Shown in pieces: positions 46,382-53,085 of a stretch of 64,000 bases of DNA (position 1 is its first letter; each line of letters begins with the position of its first letter). The position numbers were made by a program, and so were the translations under genes. Origin of the DNA: Bacteroidota bacterium (GTDB lineage Bacteria > Bacteroidota > Bacteroidia > B-17B0 > Aurantibacillaceae); the NCBI GenBank assembly GCA_020403265.1, contig JADBXZ010000014.1:124001-188000 (forward strand), read 5' to 3'. Under the pieces are notes generated by a model, which did no database searches, had not been told where the DNA came from, and saw nothing but the letters and a program-made list of their open reading frames with translations.

Positions 46382-46523
46382 GTATAAATCTTTGCTTTAA
46401 GTTAGTCCTTTTTATTGAAATTTAAAAATGTGTTTTTCGACTTGGTAAAATATATTTGCATCTAAACCTCAAATGGCAGCTACCCTCAGCCTAATGGATT
46501 ATTCGCAGTGCAACGGATACAAG

Positions 46524-46625
46524 ATTTTACGCAGAATTAAAAATCCTGCGGAGTTGATTACAAATCTCAGTACTTTAAGTTTTTGCACAGCTTTACATTC
46601 GCTGCGGCGAATTAGTGCAGCGGGA
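46524..46625 (+). repeat. Dispersed repeat copy C
   Basis: About 102 nt, starting ATTTTACGCAGAATTAAAAATCCTGCGG. It shares TGATTACAAATCTCAGTACT and TTTTTGC..AGCTTTACA with copy E (39 of 43 positions) and TTTACATTCGC with A and B. It ends 27 nt from the DUF4268 stop. Confidence 0.82.
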
Positions 46626-46652: not shown

Positions 46653-47591
46653 CTATAGCTTTACTACTTTCGGTTTGAAGTAGCCCATATAACGTTCCAA
46701 ATTATCTTTAAACCATTGAAACTGATTATTCCACTCGTTTCTATCAGTAAAATCTCCAATAGCTTTTAACATAACTGCACTCATTTTTCGCCCGTCCATT
46801 TTATCCCAAACCAAATCCTTATTTACTTCTGCAAATGAACTTTCATAGCCAACGGAATATAGTTTATCATAATTCTCCTTTGCTTGATCACCCATTATAT
46901 TTAACCAAATATTTATTGAATTATCCCGAGAATTGACAGAAGCCGACAAATGAAAATTGCTTCGACCAATTGCAATATTTGTCCAATGTTGAGGCAAAGG
47001 ATTTTGCATTTTAACAAAACTTTTTTTAGTTTCCATGAAATCTTTCAGTCCCTGCCAATATTCTTGTTGAAGTAGTTTGGTATCTGTAGTTGGTTGTGAA
47101 GTTGTAGAACGTTTAACTTGCTTGGTCCAATCATTAGGTTTGGAAACGATATTAAACATTGGTGCGGGTGAAGAGTCTCCAATTTTATATAGTTCTATTT
47201 CAATTCCGAAAAACGTGAATGTATCGTCAGTTATTCTGTTTAACCAGTCTAAAGCTGCCCTGTGTTCTTCTGTAAATTTTTGGGCAATCCAAATAATGGT
47301 TACAGCATCAAGTCCGGCAGCATAAGTCATTAGTTGACCCAAATGAGTATGATCAGTTTTCTCAAGCTGATTTTCAATTAAAACGAAATGATCGTTAATT
47401 GTATCCTTACATAAAATATCAGCGCTAAAAGGCCCCACGCTTTCTTCTTGACTTTGAACTTCGAGTTCAATACCTATCGTTTCACTCAATAACTGAATAT
47501 TCTCATCTTGGGCAAGCCATGGCGTAAAATCGGTCGCTTCTTTTTTCCAATAAGCTCTTAAATCAATTTTCTCTAATCTGCCTAGCTTCAT
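46653..47591 (-). CDS. DUF4268 protein with nuclease-like N-terminus
   Basis: The 312-residue protein has an N-terminal segment with SADILCKD and, 10-15 residues later, VLIENQLEKTDHTHLGQ, an Asp...Glu-x-Gln arrangement like a PD-(D/E)xK nuclease core. The C-terminal DUF4268 domain follows (about 190-300). It lies 24 nt downstream of the MmeI-like gene on the same strand. A partner role in restriction is plausible but not proven. Confidence 0.75.
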   Translation of the reverse strand: MKLGRLEKIDLRAYWKKEATDFTPWLAQDENIQLLSETIGIELEVQSQEESVGPFSADILCKDTINDHFVLIENQLEKTDHTHLGQLMTYAAGLDAVTIIWIAQKFTEEHRAALDWLNRITDDTFTFFGIEIELYKIGDSSPAPMFNIVSKPNDWTKQVKRSTTSQPTTDTKLLQQEYWQGLKDFMETKKSFVKMQNPLPQHWTNIAIGRSNFHLSASVNSRDNSINIWLNIMGDQAKENYDKLYSVGYESSFAEVNKDLVWDKMDGRKMSAVMLKAIGDFTDRNEWNNQFQWFKDNLERYMGYFKPKVVKL

Positions 47592-47615: not shown

Positions 47616-50498
47616 TTATTTTTTACTTTTCTTCACCTTCTCCTTAGTAAACAAATCCGCCGTATACTTTTCGTATAACTCAAATAAAAATTCCATTCTA
47701 TTAGCTTCACTAGTGAATGGCTTCGGACGATATGCTAAATCAACGGCTTTATCTAACTCAATATGCGCTTTTACTAACGATGGTGGCATTTTTTCTGTAT
47801 CGTATAATACTGCTAACGAACTATCAGAAAATTGAGTTCTAATATCCAATACTTTTTGTATAGCTTTTTTAATTTGCTCAGCTTGTTTTACCGAAATGTT
47901 TTCCGGCCAAGGAAAATTATTATATACTATTTCATTTGAATATCTGTACCTGTTTTCTAATCTTCCACAAACCGAACTGACCCATGCCATGTGCATGGAC
48001 GATTGTAAAACGCCTAAATGATATAAACTTGAGTCGGCAATAATACTACCGGTGTTATTCGCAATAAAACTTTTATCGAAAAATCCCATTGGTATTACTT
48101 TTCTATTTTCTGAAGATGTTAGCGGAATAAAAATATAATCAGATTTTGGTTGACGAATTTCACCAAATTGATAGGGAAATAATGCTAATTTTTTTGTTGC
48201 CTCTCTAGTACTTTTTTCTCTCAAATCTTTTACTGCTTTAATTCTATTTGAGAGCTCTTTACTTTTGACCAAATCGGAAGGATTGAAATCCTCTAGCCAC
48301 AAACACCACTTAATACCACCATTTAAAAATTCCTGACCACTTACTAATTTTCTACAATATTTTTCAAAAACCTTGTCTTTTATGCAAAGTTCTTCTTTTA
48401 AATAGCTTTCAATAATCAAAAATCCACCATCATTGGGCATACTTCCAAAAGAAATTTCGGGGACATTACAAATTGGCGTTCTTCTTTTTTCAATAAAAAT
48501 ATCTTTTGCATCAACTAAATAAGGATTAATGTTTTTAGCTTTTACTTCGAGCGCTTCACCTTTAATATCTTCATATTCAAAAATACTTTTATTAGTTGTG
48601 TCAAAGTTAGCGAAGCCGATTATCACACAATAAACAGCAGCATTTCCTTTTGCTTCATTACTCCATTTAAATGTGCGATGCGCAAAATGAATTTTAATTC
48701 CGTATTTCTTGAGCATTTGCCCCCACAAGATACTTGTTTGTTCGCCTTGCACAATGGAGTTGGTACTAACAAATGCTACTTTCGTTTTTGTGTTTTGTAT
48801 GTATTTGGCGGCTTTGATATACCAAGCCGTAACATAATCTAAAACTCCTGCGCCTTGTATGTTATCAAATTCTTTTACAACATCATCACGCTGAGATTGA
48901 GACATGATTTTTGCGCCGATAAATGGCGGATTTCCAATGATGTAGTTGTACTTTGGTTCGCTTTCTTTTCTTAGTATTTTTAACCCTTGATATGAAACAT
49001 CAGGGGAATGTATTTCAAGTTTATATTTTTTTTCTGGTTCATTAATTACATGTGAAATTTCAATTTTATCAGCATATAATTTTTTAACAAATGCGTCTTC
49101 GGTTTCAAACGTATGCCAATTTATTTTTAGAGCATCTCCATGAACAATCATAGCCGCTTTTTTTAATGGCAGGCGTGCAAAGTACTGTCCAAACTCATTG
49201 CTAATTGCCATGTTCATTTGATGGTCTATTAACCACATGGCCACTTCAGCAATACGGGCAGGAAATTCTTCATACTCGATACCGTACATTTGGTCAACGT
49301 TGAGTTGAATCAATGCACTTACATCAATAATTGTTTGGCCAGATTTATTTAAGGCACGAATTATTTCTAATTCTAATAAGCGTAATTCGCGATAAGTAAT
49401 AACTAAGAAATTGCCGCAACCGCAAGCAGGGTCAAGGAATTTTAGAGTGCCAAGTCGTTTATGAAATTCTGCTAATTTATTTTTGTTACCTTTTATGTTC
49501 TCAAATTCTGCCCATAGCTCATCTAAGAATAAAGGCTTTATTAATTTTAGAATGTTCTTTTCACTTGTATAATGCGCCCCCAAGTTTCTTCTTTCTTTAG
49601 GATTCATTACACTTTGGAACATAGAACCAAATATGGCAGGCGAAATTTTGCTCCAATCGATATAACAACACTCTAATAATGCCTGGCGCATTTTGCTATC
49701 AAAACTTGCAGTTGGCAAAGTTTCTTCAAACAGTTTACCATTTACATAAGGAAATTCGGCAAGTTGTTCATCCAAATTTTTGAAGCGTTTATCATTAGGT
49801 GTATTAAGCACCTGAAATAATTCTTGCAATTTACCTGCAAGATCGCTACCGTCTTCCGAAGTTCGTTGCTCAATAAAATCCTGAAATTGCTGTTTATTAA
49901 AGATGGTCGTATCTTCTGCAAATAAGCAGAACAGAATACGAACCAGATATACTTCTAATGGATGACCTTCATAGCCGATTTCTTCTAGTCTATCATGAAG
50001 TTTACCCATCAATTCAGCCGCCTTGATGTTGGCAGGGTCTTGTTCCTTATAAACTTTCTTTTGATAACCTGAGATAAAACCGAATAAGTGAACGTTTTTT
50101 ACTAAGTCAGATAAATGAAATTCATTTGTTGTTTTCTCTTCGGTATCGTATAAGCGGAAAACATCAAAGTCGCAAACTAAAATGTACTTAGGTAATTCGT
50201 GAGATTTAAGCCCATGTGCGTAATCTTTGGCTTGTTCAAAGGCTTTATCTAAGTTCTTGCCCTTGCTTTTCATTTCAATCAAAATGGTTCCCTTCCAAAG
50301 CAAATCAATATAGCCATCGGCTTCATTAAGTTTTTTAACCTTATGCTCAAAGGTTCCAATTTTTTTTCGAGGCACGCCAAATACGTCAAAGAAAGCATCT
50401 AAGAAAGGTTTTGCGTCCGCTTCTTCATTATGTGTGGCAGCCCATTCCTTTGAGAACTTAACTGCACGCTCTTTTATTTCGTTCCAACTTAATGCCAT
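47616..50498 (-). CDS. MmeI-like type IIL single-chain restriction-modification enzyme
   Basis: The 960-residue protein has an N-terminal domain matching the MmeI family (MALSWNEIKERAVKF, then FEHKVKKL). Its PD-(D/E)xK site is DLLWKGTILIEMKSKGK, with the Glu-x-Lys near residue 78. The adenine methyltransferase has SAM motif I FLDPACGCGNF and the catalytic NPPF (IIGNPPFIGA). A target-recognition region and tail follow. Such enzymes cut DNA and methylate one strand with the same polypeptide. All key residues are present, so it appears active. Recognition sequence cannot be read here. Confidence 0.92.
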   Translation of the reverse strand: MALSWNEIKERAVKFSKEWAATHNEEADAKPFLDAFFDVFGVPRKKIGTFEHKVKKLNEADGYIDLLWKGTILIEMKSKGKNLDKAFEQAKDYAHGLKSHELPKYILVCDFDVFRLYDTEEKTTNEFHLSDLVKNVHLFGFISGYQKKVYKEQDPANIKAAELMGKLHDRLEEIGYEGHPLEVYLVRILFCLFAEDTTIFNKQQFQDFIEQRTSEDGSDLAGKLQELFQVLNTPNDKRFKNLDEQLAEFPYVNGKLFEETLPTASFDSKMRQALLECCYIDWSKISPAIFGSMFQSVMNPKERRNLGAHYTSEKNILKLIKPLFLDELWAEFENIKGNKNKLAEFHKRLGTLKFLDPACGCGNFLVITYRELRLLELEIIRALNKSGQTIIDVSALIQLNVDQMYGIEYEEFPARIAEVAMWLIDHQMNMAISNEFGQYFARLPLKKAAMIVHGDALKINWHTFETEDAFVKKLYADKIEISHVINEPEKKYKLEIHSPDVSYQGLKILRKESEPKYNYIIGNPPFIGAKIMSQSQRDDVVKEFDNIQGAGVLDYVTAWYIKAAKYIQNTKTKVAFVSTNSIVQGEQTSILWGQMLKKYGIKIHFAHRTFKWSNEAKGNAAVYCVIIGFANFDTTNKSIFEYEDIKGEALEVKAKNINPYLVDAKDIFIEKRRTPICNVPEISFGSMPNDGGFLIIESYLKEELCIKDKVFEKYCRKLVSGQEFLNGGIKWCLWLEDFNPSDLVKSKELSNRIKAVKDLREKSTREATKKLALFPYQFGEIRQPKSDYIFIPLTSSENRKVIPMGFFDKSFIANNTGSIIADSSLYHLGVLQSSMHMAWVSSVCGRLENRYRYSNEIVYNNFPWPENISVKQAEQIKKAIQKVLDIRTQFSDSSLAVLYDTEKMPPSLVKAHIELDKAVDLAYRPKPFTSEANRMEFLFELYEKYTADLFTKEKVKKSKK

Positions 50499-50650: not shown

Positions 50651-50697
50651 CTATTTTTAAATTTTTACGCAGGATTGGAAATCCTATGGAGCTAGTA
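50651..50697 (+). repeat. Dispersed repeat copy D (short)
   Basis: About 47 nt: CTATTTTTAAATTTTTACGC, then AGGATTGGAAATCCTATGGAGC. Only the 5' part of the family is kept. It lies between the divergent MmeI-like and Abi-alpha genes. Confidence 0.7.
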
Positions 50698-50787: not shown

Positions 50788-51420
50788 ATGGGTGAAATAA
50801 ATATAAAATCAACAACAATTGAAAAATCAATTGAGCTACTTCAGGATCTTTTAAAATGTCTTGTTGGTAAACCAATTAGTGAAATAGGTTCTTTACTTGA
50901 AGATAAAGTAAAGTTATGGAGGCTTAAAAATCAAATTACAACTTTAAATAAAGTTAAGTCCATTTGTGAAAATGAAAATGTTCCTTTTAAACAGGTTAAT
51001 TTAAAAATAGTTTTTCCTTACTTAGAAGGTATTTCTTTAGAAGATAATAATACTATACAAACTTTGTGGGCAAATCTACTTGTTAACTATATGGACGAAA
51101 AAAAGAAATTAGAAGCCACCGTTTATCCAGAAATATTAAGACAACTTTCATCCAAAGATGTTGAAATTTTGGAGAATTATTATAAAGGAGAAATTTTTTA
51201 TGATTATAATAATCTCCCTGTAAGAAAAACCAATGAGGATTTGAAATATTCTATTCACGAATTAGCTAATTTAGAAAGATTAGGCTTAATTAGGCCAGTA
51301 CTTAAAATTTATAATACTAGTGGTAGAGGTACAGGCATATTCTCAAGATTAGAAGTTGAGTATGCCTCAATAAAGGTATCTGTTTTTGGTGATTTATTTT
51401 TTAATGCCTGCCATCGATAA
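50788..51420 (+). CDS. Abi-alpha (DUF4393) family abortive-infection protein
   Basis: The 210-residue protein has the Abi_alpha core: a helical N-terminus, then PYLEGISLEDNNTIQTLWANLLVNYMD and EILRQLSSKDVEIL. A C-terminal winged-helix-like part follows (YSIHELANLERLGLIRP). The family is linked to abortive infection, but the mechanism is not well known. It is the only unit of the region on the + strand. Confidence 0.8.
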   Translation: MGEINIKSTTIEKSIELLQDLLKCLVGKPISEIGSLLEDKVKLWRLKNQITTLNKVKSICENENVPFKQVNLKIVFPYLEGISLEDNNTIQTLWANLLVNYMDEKKKLEATVYPEILRQLSSKDVEILENYYKGEIFYDYNNLPVRKTNEDLKYSIHELANLERLGLIRPVLKIYNTSGRGTGIFSRLEVEYASIKVSVFGDLFFNACHR

Positions 51421-51532: not shown

Positions 51533-51626
51533 GTTTTTCCGAAGGATTACAAATACTGCGGAGCTAGTGATTGCAAATCTCAGTACTTAAAGTTTTTGCG
51601 TAGCTTTACAAAAGCAGCGCAGCGAC
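51533..51626 (+). repeat. Dispersed repeat copy E
   Basis: About 94 nt: GTTTTTCCGAAGGATTACAAAT, CTGCGGAGCTAGTGATTGC, then TTTTTGCGTAGCTTTACA and AGCAGCGCAGCG. It matches copy C in the middle and copies A/B at the end, and lies 22 nt past the stop of the RelA/SpoT-domain gene. Confidence 0.82.
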
Positions 51627-51648: not shown

Positions 51649-52953
51649 TTATGAAATCGTTTTTCGTAACTTAAATCTATATTTTGCAGTTATTAGTTTT
51701 GTTGAAACTTTTATTAATTGTTTCCCTAAAAAATTAGTTGGCATGTGTTTTCGGAATGAGTAGCCTAAATTTTTTTGTTTTTCTTTTCTTTGATCTAAAT
51801 GCTTTTTTATATCATTTACCCATTCTTTTTCCTTTTTCTTTGTTTTACTAATATTTTTCTTTGATTTATTTTTTTGAGCGATAGAGCTAATTTCCATTAC
51901 TTCTGAATGAACATTTCTAATATGATTATAAGAAATACTGTTATACAAATTGAAATAACGGATATAGCTAACATATTTTTTTTCAATTAAAGTTTTTTCA
52001 ATTAAATTTTCAATTATTTCGCAACAATCATCCAAAAAACTATGAAAGGTTAAAATATAATTTGAATACGCAATACTTATTTGTTCGTAGGAAGGAGATG
52101 TTAAATGTGTCAATACAACATTTGCATTATGGCTATTTTTATAAATACTAAAATATTCGTCCTCCGCCTCTTCAAAAGTTTTAAACGCTTTTATTTTTGG
52201 GATTTCTTCTTTTTTTGTTTCTATCAAAAAATAATTATGCTTATACTTTGTTTCAATGTCAAGCCATTGTTTTCGAACTTGTATGTAATTTCTACTGAAG
52301 ACATCACTTAATTTCTCAAAATATTTATATTCTTTTATAGTGTTGACGACTACAGCTTTATCTTCTGTAGTAAGCATATCTTTCTTAGAAAGTAAATAAT
52401 GAAATCTTAGTAATTTTTTATCTTCTTTAAATTCTTTTAGTTTTGCATTAAACAATAAATCTGAAATTTCAACCAAGGTTGCCCAATTATGGTCTAATTT
52501 GTTTCTAATTTGAAGTTCAACAATTATAGAATCATTTTTTATACATAGGAATAAATGCAAAGATCTATAACCCTCTTCTTGAGGTTTACTAATATAATCA
52601 TACTCCTTCTTTATCTCTATTTCAGGTGTGTTTTTTAACACCTCTTTTAGTTTATAAACATCAGCATCAGATTCAACAATACATCTACATCCAGCAATAT
52701 CCCACATCCTATTAAATTTCATATCTTTGTATCTATTCAGTTTACTAATTATAGATTCAAATCTTTTAATTCGGTAGGTCACTATATTCTTTGTTTTATT
52801 TTTATTTATCTTACATAAAATGTTAAAAATCTGAGAAAGTGAAGTTTTATGAGATGTTCTATACCTTTGTAAGGTAGCAAGGGTCTCATCAGATAGGTTT
52901 TCATGTTCCTTTCTAATTCTGTCTCCTAACCTATCAATTTCCCCCTTTGTCAT
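51649..52953 (-). CDS. Stand-alone RelA/SpoT-domain alarmone synthetase-like protein
   Basis: The 434-residue protein has a (p)ppGpp-synthetase domain at about 55-190: YRIKRFESIISKLNR, the magnesium-binding Asp in DIAGCRCIV, the DYISKPQEEGYRSLH substrate loop and the catalytic Glu in VELQIRNKLDHNWA. There is no hydrolase (HD) domain and no TGS/ACT regulatory tail. A helical C-terminal region of about 240 residues follows, ending in a very basic tail. Size and context resemble toxic small alarmone synthetases, but the C-terminal part is not recognised. Confidence 0.82.
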   Translation of the reverse strand: MTKGEIDRLGDRIRKEHENLSDETLATLQRYRTSHKTSLSQIFNILCKINKNKTKNIVTYRIKRFESIISKLNRYKDMKFNRMWDIAGCRCIVESDADVYKLKEVLKNTPEIEIKKEYDYISKPQEEGYRSLHLFLCIKNDSIIVELQIRNKLDHNWATLVEISDLLFNAKLKEFKEDKKLLRFHYLLSKKDMLTTEDKAVVVNTIKEYKYFEKLSDVFSRNYIQVRKQWLDIETKYKHNYFLIETKKEEIPKIKAFKTFEEAEDEYFSIYKNSHNANVVLTHLTSPSYEQISIAYSNYILTFHSFLDDCCEIIENLIEKTLIEKKYVSYIRYFNLYNSISYNHIRNVHSEVMEISSIAQKNKSKKNISKTKKKEKEWVNDIKKHLDQRKEKQKNLGYSFRKHMPTNFLGKQLIKVSTKLITAKYRFKLRKTIS

Positions 52954-52995: not shown

Positions 52996-53019
52996 AAAAC
53001 CAACATCGCTGTTGGTTTT
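52996..53019 (-). terminator. Terminator downstream of nrdA
   Basis: AAAACCAAC pairs perfectly with GTTGGTTTT over a 6-nt loop. On the - strand it is followed by a T-run. It lies about 70 nt past the nrdA stop and just before the start of the RelA/SpoT-domain gene. Confidence 0.7.
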
Positions 53020-53040: not shown

Positions 53041-53085
53041 AGCAGGCTTCGACTCCGCTCAGCCTGACGCAGAATCAGCCTGACG
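53041..53085. repeat. Short hairpin repeat with duplicated TCAGCCTGACG
   Basis: CAGGCT and AGCCTG form a 6-bp stem around TCGACTCCGCTC, and TCAGCCTGACG then recurs 5 nt later. The sequence is much richer in G+C than its surroundings and unrelated to repeats A-E. It lies between the nrdA stop and its terminator. Confidence 0.55.

Follow-up and report, generated by a model that had tools for sequence, protein, structure and literature searches.

The window analysed here, a 64,000-nucleotide stretch of Bacteroidota DNA (contig JADBXZ010000014.1), contains a gene that a preliminary description had taken for a stand-alone alarmone synthetase-like protein with a possible role in defence. Is it a housekeeping regulator or an anti-phage toxin, and if a toxin, what restrains it? 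An answer gives a concrete annotation for genes now labelled only 'RelA/SpoT domain-containing protein'. Domains, key residues, predicted fold, distribution and defence neighbourhood were computed directly. The gene (51649..52953, minus strand) is an intact open reading frame with an ATG start and encodes 434 amino acids. Pfam placed a RelA_SpoT domain at residues 61-159 (E=2e-23) and detected no hydrolase domain in the protein, in agreement with the preliminary description. The synthetase motifs that it had called intact are all there: DIAGCRCIV supplies D85 and R90, GYRSLH supplies Y129 and H133, and VELQIR supplies E146, Q148 and R150, and these seven residues are invariant across 58 of 58 long relatives. 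Alignment and residue mapping delimited a toxSYNTH core at residues ~58-175 (52429..52782, minus strand), with R61, R90 and the G-loop Y129. The AlphaFold2 (AF2) model of the full 434-residue protein had a pLDDT of 90.9 and a pTM of 0.87.

Both sequence and structure led to CapRel. CapRel was the best relative in the PDB by sequence (7ztb, 9erv; E=3e-19), and a structure comparison with CapRel and toxSAS enzymes, suggested in the preliminary description as a check, ranked it first by fold (Foldseek against the PDB; E=2.4e-14 over 353 alignment columns, with most of CapRel covered), while FaRel2 matched more weakly (E=2.1e-3). The TM score to CapRel was 0.61 by target length; the rmsd of ~10 Å over the whole chain would fit a domain rearrangement. 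The closest phage protein was the CapRel of phage SJ46, and CapRels of P1-like plasmids aligned across residues 2-308. The PADLOC model PDC-S33 covered residues 2-316 of the window protein (E=9.5e-65). It also matched CapRel-SJ46 from end to end (7e-87) and is therefore in effect a CapRel model. The likening to CapRel in the preliminary description was thus borne out by the best solved relative in both searches and by a model common to both proteins.

A joint alignment put identity to CapRel-SJ46 at only 28%, but residues of known function correspond: R79, R116, Y155, A351, Y352 and Y355 of CapRel-SJ46, reported as ATP-site, G-loop and YXXY residues (PMC9712102), map to R61, R90, Y129, A295, Y296 and Y299, with R61, like R90 and Y129, invariant in the 58 long relatives. 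At the positions of the CapRel interface residues A77 and A341, the window protein has T59 and T285. Compared with CapRel-SJ46 (Salmonella phage SJ46; PDB 7ZTB, 9ERV; PMC9712102, PMC11578894), the window protein has the same single-frame arrangement of toxSYNTH domain, anchor helices, cysteine-free pseudo-zinc-finger domain (pseudo-ZFD) and YXXY motif, the same ATP-site arginines and G-loop tyrosine, and the same PADLOC model. It differs in having GYRSLH in place of GYSGIH and a four-helix C-terminal extension of ~115-130 residues, and in residing on a Bacteroidota chromosome, with extended relatives linked to restriction-modification (R-M) genes, rather than in a prophage. In a phylogenetic tree that included only four short CapRels, the extended proteins formed one group (100/100) on a long branch. 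The low identity, the long branch, the GYRSLH G-loop, the two interface differences and the high rmsd count against a CapRel assignment. On balance, the gene product is very probably an enzyme of phage defence that inhibits itself and is of the known CapRel type, a fused toxin-antitoxin.

What would hold such an enzyme in check? The preliminary description had regarded about 240 C-terminal residues as unrecognised and proposed that they act as a sensor or a built-in neutraliser. Its first statement holds for residues ~306-433, which have no known relative, but not for residues ~176-300, which align with the antitoxin half of CapRel-SJ46, namely the anchor helices, the cysteine-free pseudo-zinc-finger and the YXXY motif. 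Residues ~176-238 (52240..52428, minus strand) correspond by alignment to CapRel alpha7-alpha9 and anchor-1, with helices at 179-189, 196-208 and 211-236 in the AF2 model. The pseudo-ZFD follows at residues ~239-290 (52084..52239, minus strand). It aligns with that of CapRel, has a beta-beta-alpha-beta fold in the model (strands 241-246, 253-257 and 278-283; helix 260-273) and contains no cysteine. Next comes AYSNY (residues 295-299; 52057..52071, minus strand), which maps onto A351, Y352, N354 and Y355 of CapRel as the YXXY neutralisation motif. A295, Y296, N298 and Y299 are invariant in all 58 aligned long relatives; AYxNY occurs in each of the 51 intact relatives counted, where shuffled sequences give an expectation of 0.18 in 51. 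In the AF2 model the YXXY lies within a short helix (297-300), the conformation described for the neutralised state (PMC11782079). Because CapRel-like residues, a pseudo-ZFD fold and a conserved YXXY coincide with the best structure match and the PDC-S33 match, residues ~239-300 are very probably the suspected neutraliser.

We next consider whether the gene belongs to the core genome. A housekeeping distribution in all relatives had been named in the preliminary description as an argument against a role in defence. The extended form was found in 3 of 87 genomes of the window's order. An alignment-based scan of genome contigs gave 54 loci, nearly all in Bacteroidota and one in Balneolota; a scan of the contigs with the single sequence recovered no relatives. 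A separate housekeeping long RSH of 737 amino acids is encoded in the same genome. GC content is 26-27% across the CapRel gene and the adjacent Abi_alpha gene, compared with about 31-43% in the surroundings. In congeners, nrdA, which lies next to the CapRel gene in the window, is followed by a different gene in each case; its 3' side is apparently a variable site, occupied in three congener loci (L150, L154, L158) by an ATPase or PHP-domain-like gene that is possibly defensive. Since the gene after nrdA differs per congener and the two flanking blocks lie apart in the closest available case, no clean empty insertion site could be demonstrated. The patchy distribution, the separate RSH, the low GC content and the variable site downstream of nrdA together indicate that the CapRel gene is a horizontally acquired accessory gene and not a housekeeping one.

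A phage origin was considered and rejected: IMG/VR returned one relative, a short CapRel, and none with the extension, and among phage records every match was either short or partial. The IMG/VR contig (L111), the only viral relative found, encodes a 318-residue CapRel with AYPNY and without the extension. Note that two relatives carry frameshifts, one early and near an A-rich stretch (L057, 4238-4300) and one in the extension (L069, 8990); these may be pseudogenes, phase variation or assembly errors.

A CapRel-type fused toxin-antitoxin that is autoinhibited and released by phage is the best explanation for these results, and we consider it probable. At rest, the pseudo-zinc-finger would fold back onto the synthetase domain, and the AYSNY motif, inserted between R61 and R90, would block the site for ATP, the pyrophosphate donor, and so keep the domain silent. 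During infection, the C-terminal half would be kept off the active site by a trigger, which is probably a protein of the phage or a complex of phage and host proteins, and the released enzyme would most likely pyrophosphorylate tRNA. In this scheme autoinhibition, tRNA as substrate, phage triggering and abortive infection are carried over by analogy from work on CapRel-SJ46, CapRel-Ebc and FaRel2 (PMC9712102, PMC11578894, PMC13423816, PMC11782079, PMC11559606). CapRel-Ebc, likewise a fused CapRel, shows that the trigger can be a phage-host protein complex (PMC13423816); it is a proteobacterial, canonical CapRel and is set beside the window protein by its description in the literature only. FaRel2/ATfaRel2 (PDB 8PU3; PMC11782079, PMC11559606) also has a toxSYNTH enzyme whose ATP site is where a YXXY element neutralises it, but it consists of two separate proteins, has no extension and is only a weak match to the window protein by fold.

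Among toxic synthetases, those that target tRNA are reported to be held in check by YXXY at the donor site, and those that make (pp)pApp at the acceptor site (PMC11782079). The donor-site YXXY of the window protein, carried on a pseudo-ZFD, argues against a (pp)pApp-making toxin or a small alarmone synthetase with a regulatory role and (p)ppGpp as its product, in place of a tRNA-modifying enzyme, a reading that we consider improbable. It draws on the canonical GYRSLH and ELQIR motifs, which are those of (p)ppGpp synthetases where CapRel has GYSGIH, and on RelP and RelQ being the next best matches after CapRel in both sequence and fold searches. These small alarmone synthetases share the catalytic domain fold and motifs with the window protein, but they have a housekeeping role and carry neither pseudo-ZFD nor YXXY. 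An alarmone synthetase also fits poorly with the patchy distribution of the gene and with the housekeeping RSH already in the genome. Because the G-loop is canonical GYRSLH, (p)ppGpp is nevertheless a possible product.

A conventional toxin-antitoxin pair, with the antitoxin encoded by a second gene that has been overlooked, is very improbable, even though some CapRels, in Actinobacteria, are split into two (PMC9712102). The neutraliser domain lies within the same open reading frame, and no conserved small partner gene appeared among 594 neighbouring open reading frames from ~60 neighbourhoods, in line with the preliminary description, which had found no separate antitoxin gene.

CapRel itself has been described before, with members from Bacteroidetes mentioned in PMC9712102. 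The window gene belongs to a Bacteroidota CapRel branch that has an extra helical tail and, in relatives, lies repeatedly inside R-M operons. A search of the open-access literature retrieved no report of the C-terminal extension or of CapRel inside R-M operons, which does not prove that none exists. For the direct sensing of phages by bacteria, CapRel is a leading model, and the studies cited here deal with short proteobacterial and phage-borne forms; the Bacteroidota branch, with its additional fast-evolving domain, illustrates how CapRel may be enlarged on its sensor side.

The extension (residues ~306-433; 51655..52038, minus strand) is basic, not present in CapRel-SJ46, and modelled as four helices (306-323, 327-364, 368-402 and 408-433). 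The YXXY motif is followed by 135 residues in the window protein and by 118-151 in relatives, compared with 18 in CapRel-SJ46. With so many residues past the motif, a module has been added and not lost, and we therefore speak of a variant of CapRel, a short end being typical of the family without defining it. The extension is common to ~50 Bacteroidota relatives and, folded alone, reached a pLDDT of 86.8. Pfam gave only weak, scattered helical matches to it and no family relative, and a Foldseek search of the PDB yielded no related fold (best E=0.35). It is the least conserved and fastest-evolving region, with 26% identity compared with 60% in the catalytic core. In CapRel-SJ46 the least conserved part is the phage-sensing pseudo-ZFD (PMC9712102), whereas the extended proteins have a well-conserved pseudo-ZFD and vary in the extension instead. 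One reading, which we infer from this exchange, is that the sensor has shifted from the pseudo-ZFD to the extension. We tentatively propose that the extension may serve as an additional sensor or docking surface. In most members it is strongly basic, 55 of 58 having a net charge of at least +2, and this would also suit an arm that binds nucleic acid, the ribosome or tRNA and sets substrate choice, not a sensor. This is possible but unlikely, given the very low sequence conservation, three members that are acidic or near-neutral, and the lack of any RNA-binding fold among the Pfam matches and the Foldseek matches to the PDB.

In about nine relatives, neighbour clustering, Pfam and gene orders placed the extended CapRel gene inside a type I R-M locus, on the strand of hsdS and no more than 0-36 nt from it. 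The order hsdM-hsdS-capRel occurs in seven loci (L098, L103, L104, L105, L110, L113 and L117), with hsdR downstream of capRel in L098, L103, L105, L110 and L117; L098 is from Arenibacter latericius and L105 from Flavobacterium segetis. Two others (L070 and L071) have the order hsdR-capRel-hsdS-hsdM, with capRel overlapping hsdS by 4-8 nt, and L075 carries hsdM and hsdS together with an intervening ATPase gene. A type IIG enzyme gene precedes the CapRel gene by ~10 nt in L074 and in L057 (in L057 by reading the sequence). The HsdM proteins beside CapRel fall into types that share only ~26-31% identity. On a tree built without the extension, the type I label requires at least five changes. R-M matches were found in the flanks of 13 of 57 CapRel loci and 0 of 19 nrdA control stretches, counts to be read with the controls coming from one genus, the R-M queries from the CapRel loci themselves, some loci being near-duplicates and the window contributing one of the 13. 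Linkage to R-M as a general trait of CapRel was set aside: four plasmid-borne short CapRels, a small sample, had no R-M gene annotated nearby.

The operon placement suggests, without proving, a link with restriction like that of PrrC. PrrC, which belongs to the type I R-M locus EcoprrI (PMC2610378, PMC12707154), is likewise an effector that stops translation and whose gene lies inside a type I R-M operon, but it is an unrelated enzyme, an anticodon nuclease, and a guarding role for extended CapRels is only a hypothesis. The associated R-M enzyme would silence or monitor the extended CapRel through the C-terminal helices, and a phage that inhibited or evaded restriction would set CapRel off, on the pattern of PrrC and EcoprrI. 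Such a role is compatible with CapRel chemistry; what differs is the trigger. Placement beside hsdS, abutment to type IIG enzymes, the divergent HsdM types, the repeated changes on the tree, the excess over controls and the rapid evolution of the extension all speak for it, and the PrrC precedent makes it worth testing (PMC2610378, PMC12707154). We nonetheless hold it to be a tentative, rather unlikely reading. About three quarters of the relatives, the whole Prevotella-like group included, have no R-M gene nearby; the R-M gene of the window is 1.15 kb away, behind a convergent gene; and the count carries the bias of its single-genus controls and its queries. The same operon slots also hold RhuM, AAA, GmrSD and PD-(D/E)XK genes and may be mere cargo sites, which makes simple insertion at a permissive position a genuine alternative. 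Taken to its full extent, the proposal would make extended CapRels modular restriction guards, in which a fast-evolving helical domain couples a tRNA-poisoning enzyme to a co-travelling R-M system and phage interference frees the toxin. This is doubtful; if true, the PrrC-EcoprrI principle would have been invented a second time by an unrelated system. With extended CapRel genes repeatedly inserted into type I R-M operons, it can be put to the test whether restriction has, besides PrrC, a second family of guards that act by stopping translation.

Around the window's own copy, the neighbours named in the preliminary description, an Abi-alpha protein and a restriction enzyme, were both identified, and they favour a role in defence. 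The Abi_alpha gene (50788..51420, plus strand; PF14337, E=5.5e-21) is convergent with the CapRel gene. Behind it, on the strand of the CapRel gene, lies an MmeI-like type IIG R-M enzyme gene (47616..50498, minus strand) with five MmeI Pfam domains and a PADLOC REase_MTase_IIG match, followed by a DUF4268 gene matching PADLOC PDC-S11 (46653..47591, minus strand; E=2e-126). Three copies of a degenerate direct repeat separate the R-M, Abi_alpha and CapRel cassettes: 46522..46600 (plus strand; 83% identical to the copy at 51534), 50662..50697 (plus strand; 80% over 35 nt) and 51534..51610 (plus strand; 80-83% identical to the others). A strict pattern for the repeat core occurred genome-wide only at the second and third copies. 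The repeats are possible recombination joints.

A terminator-like hairpin with a 10-pair stem, followed by a T-run on the minus strand, lies between nrdA and the CapRel gene (52996..53019); a promoter scan gave nothing above shuffled sequences. Also between these two genes, at 53043-53069, is one copy of a ~26-nt repeat (CTTCGACTCCGCTCAGCCTGACG...), for which the genome contains 29 matches. On the far side, a ParE/RelE-like toxin gene (PF05016; 45044-45492) adjoins the island, with an overlapping upstream open reading frame of 59 amino acids that is antitoxin-like.
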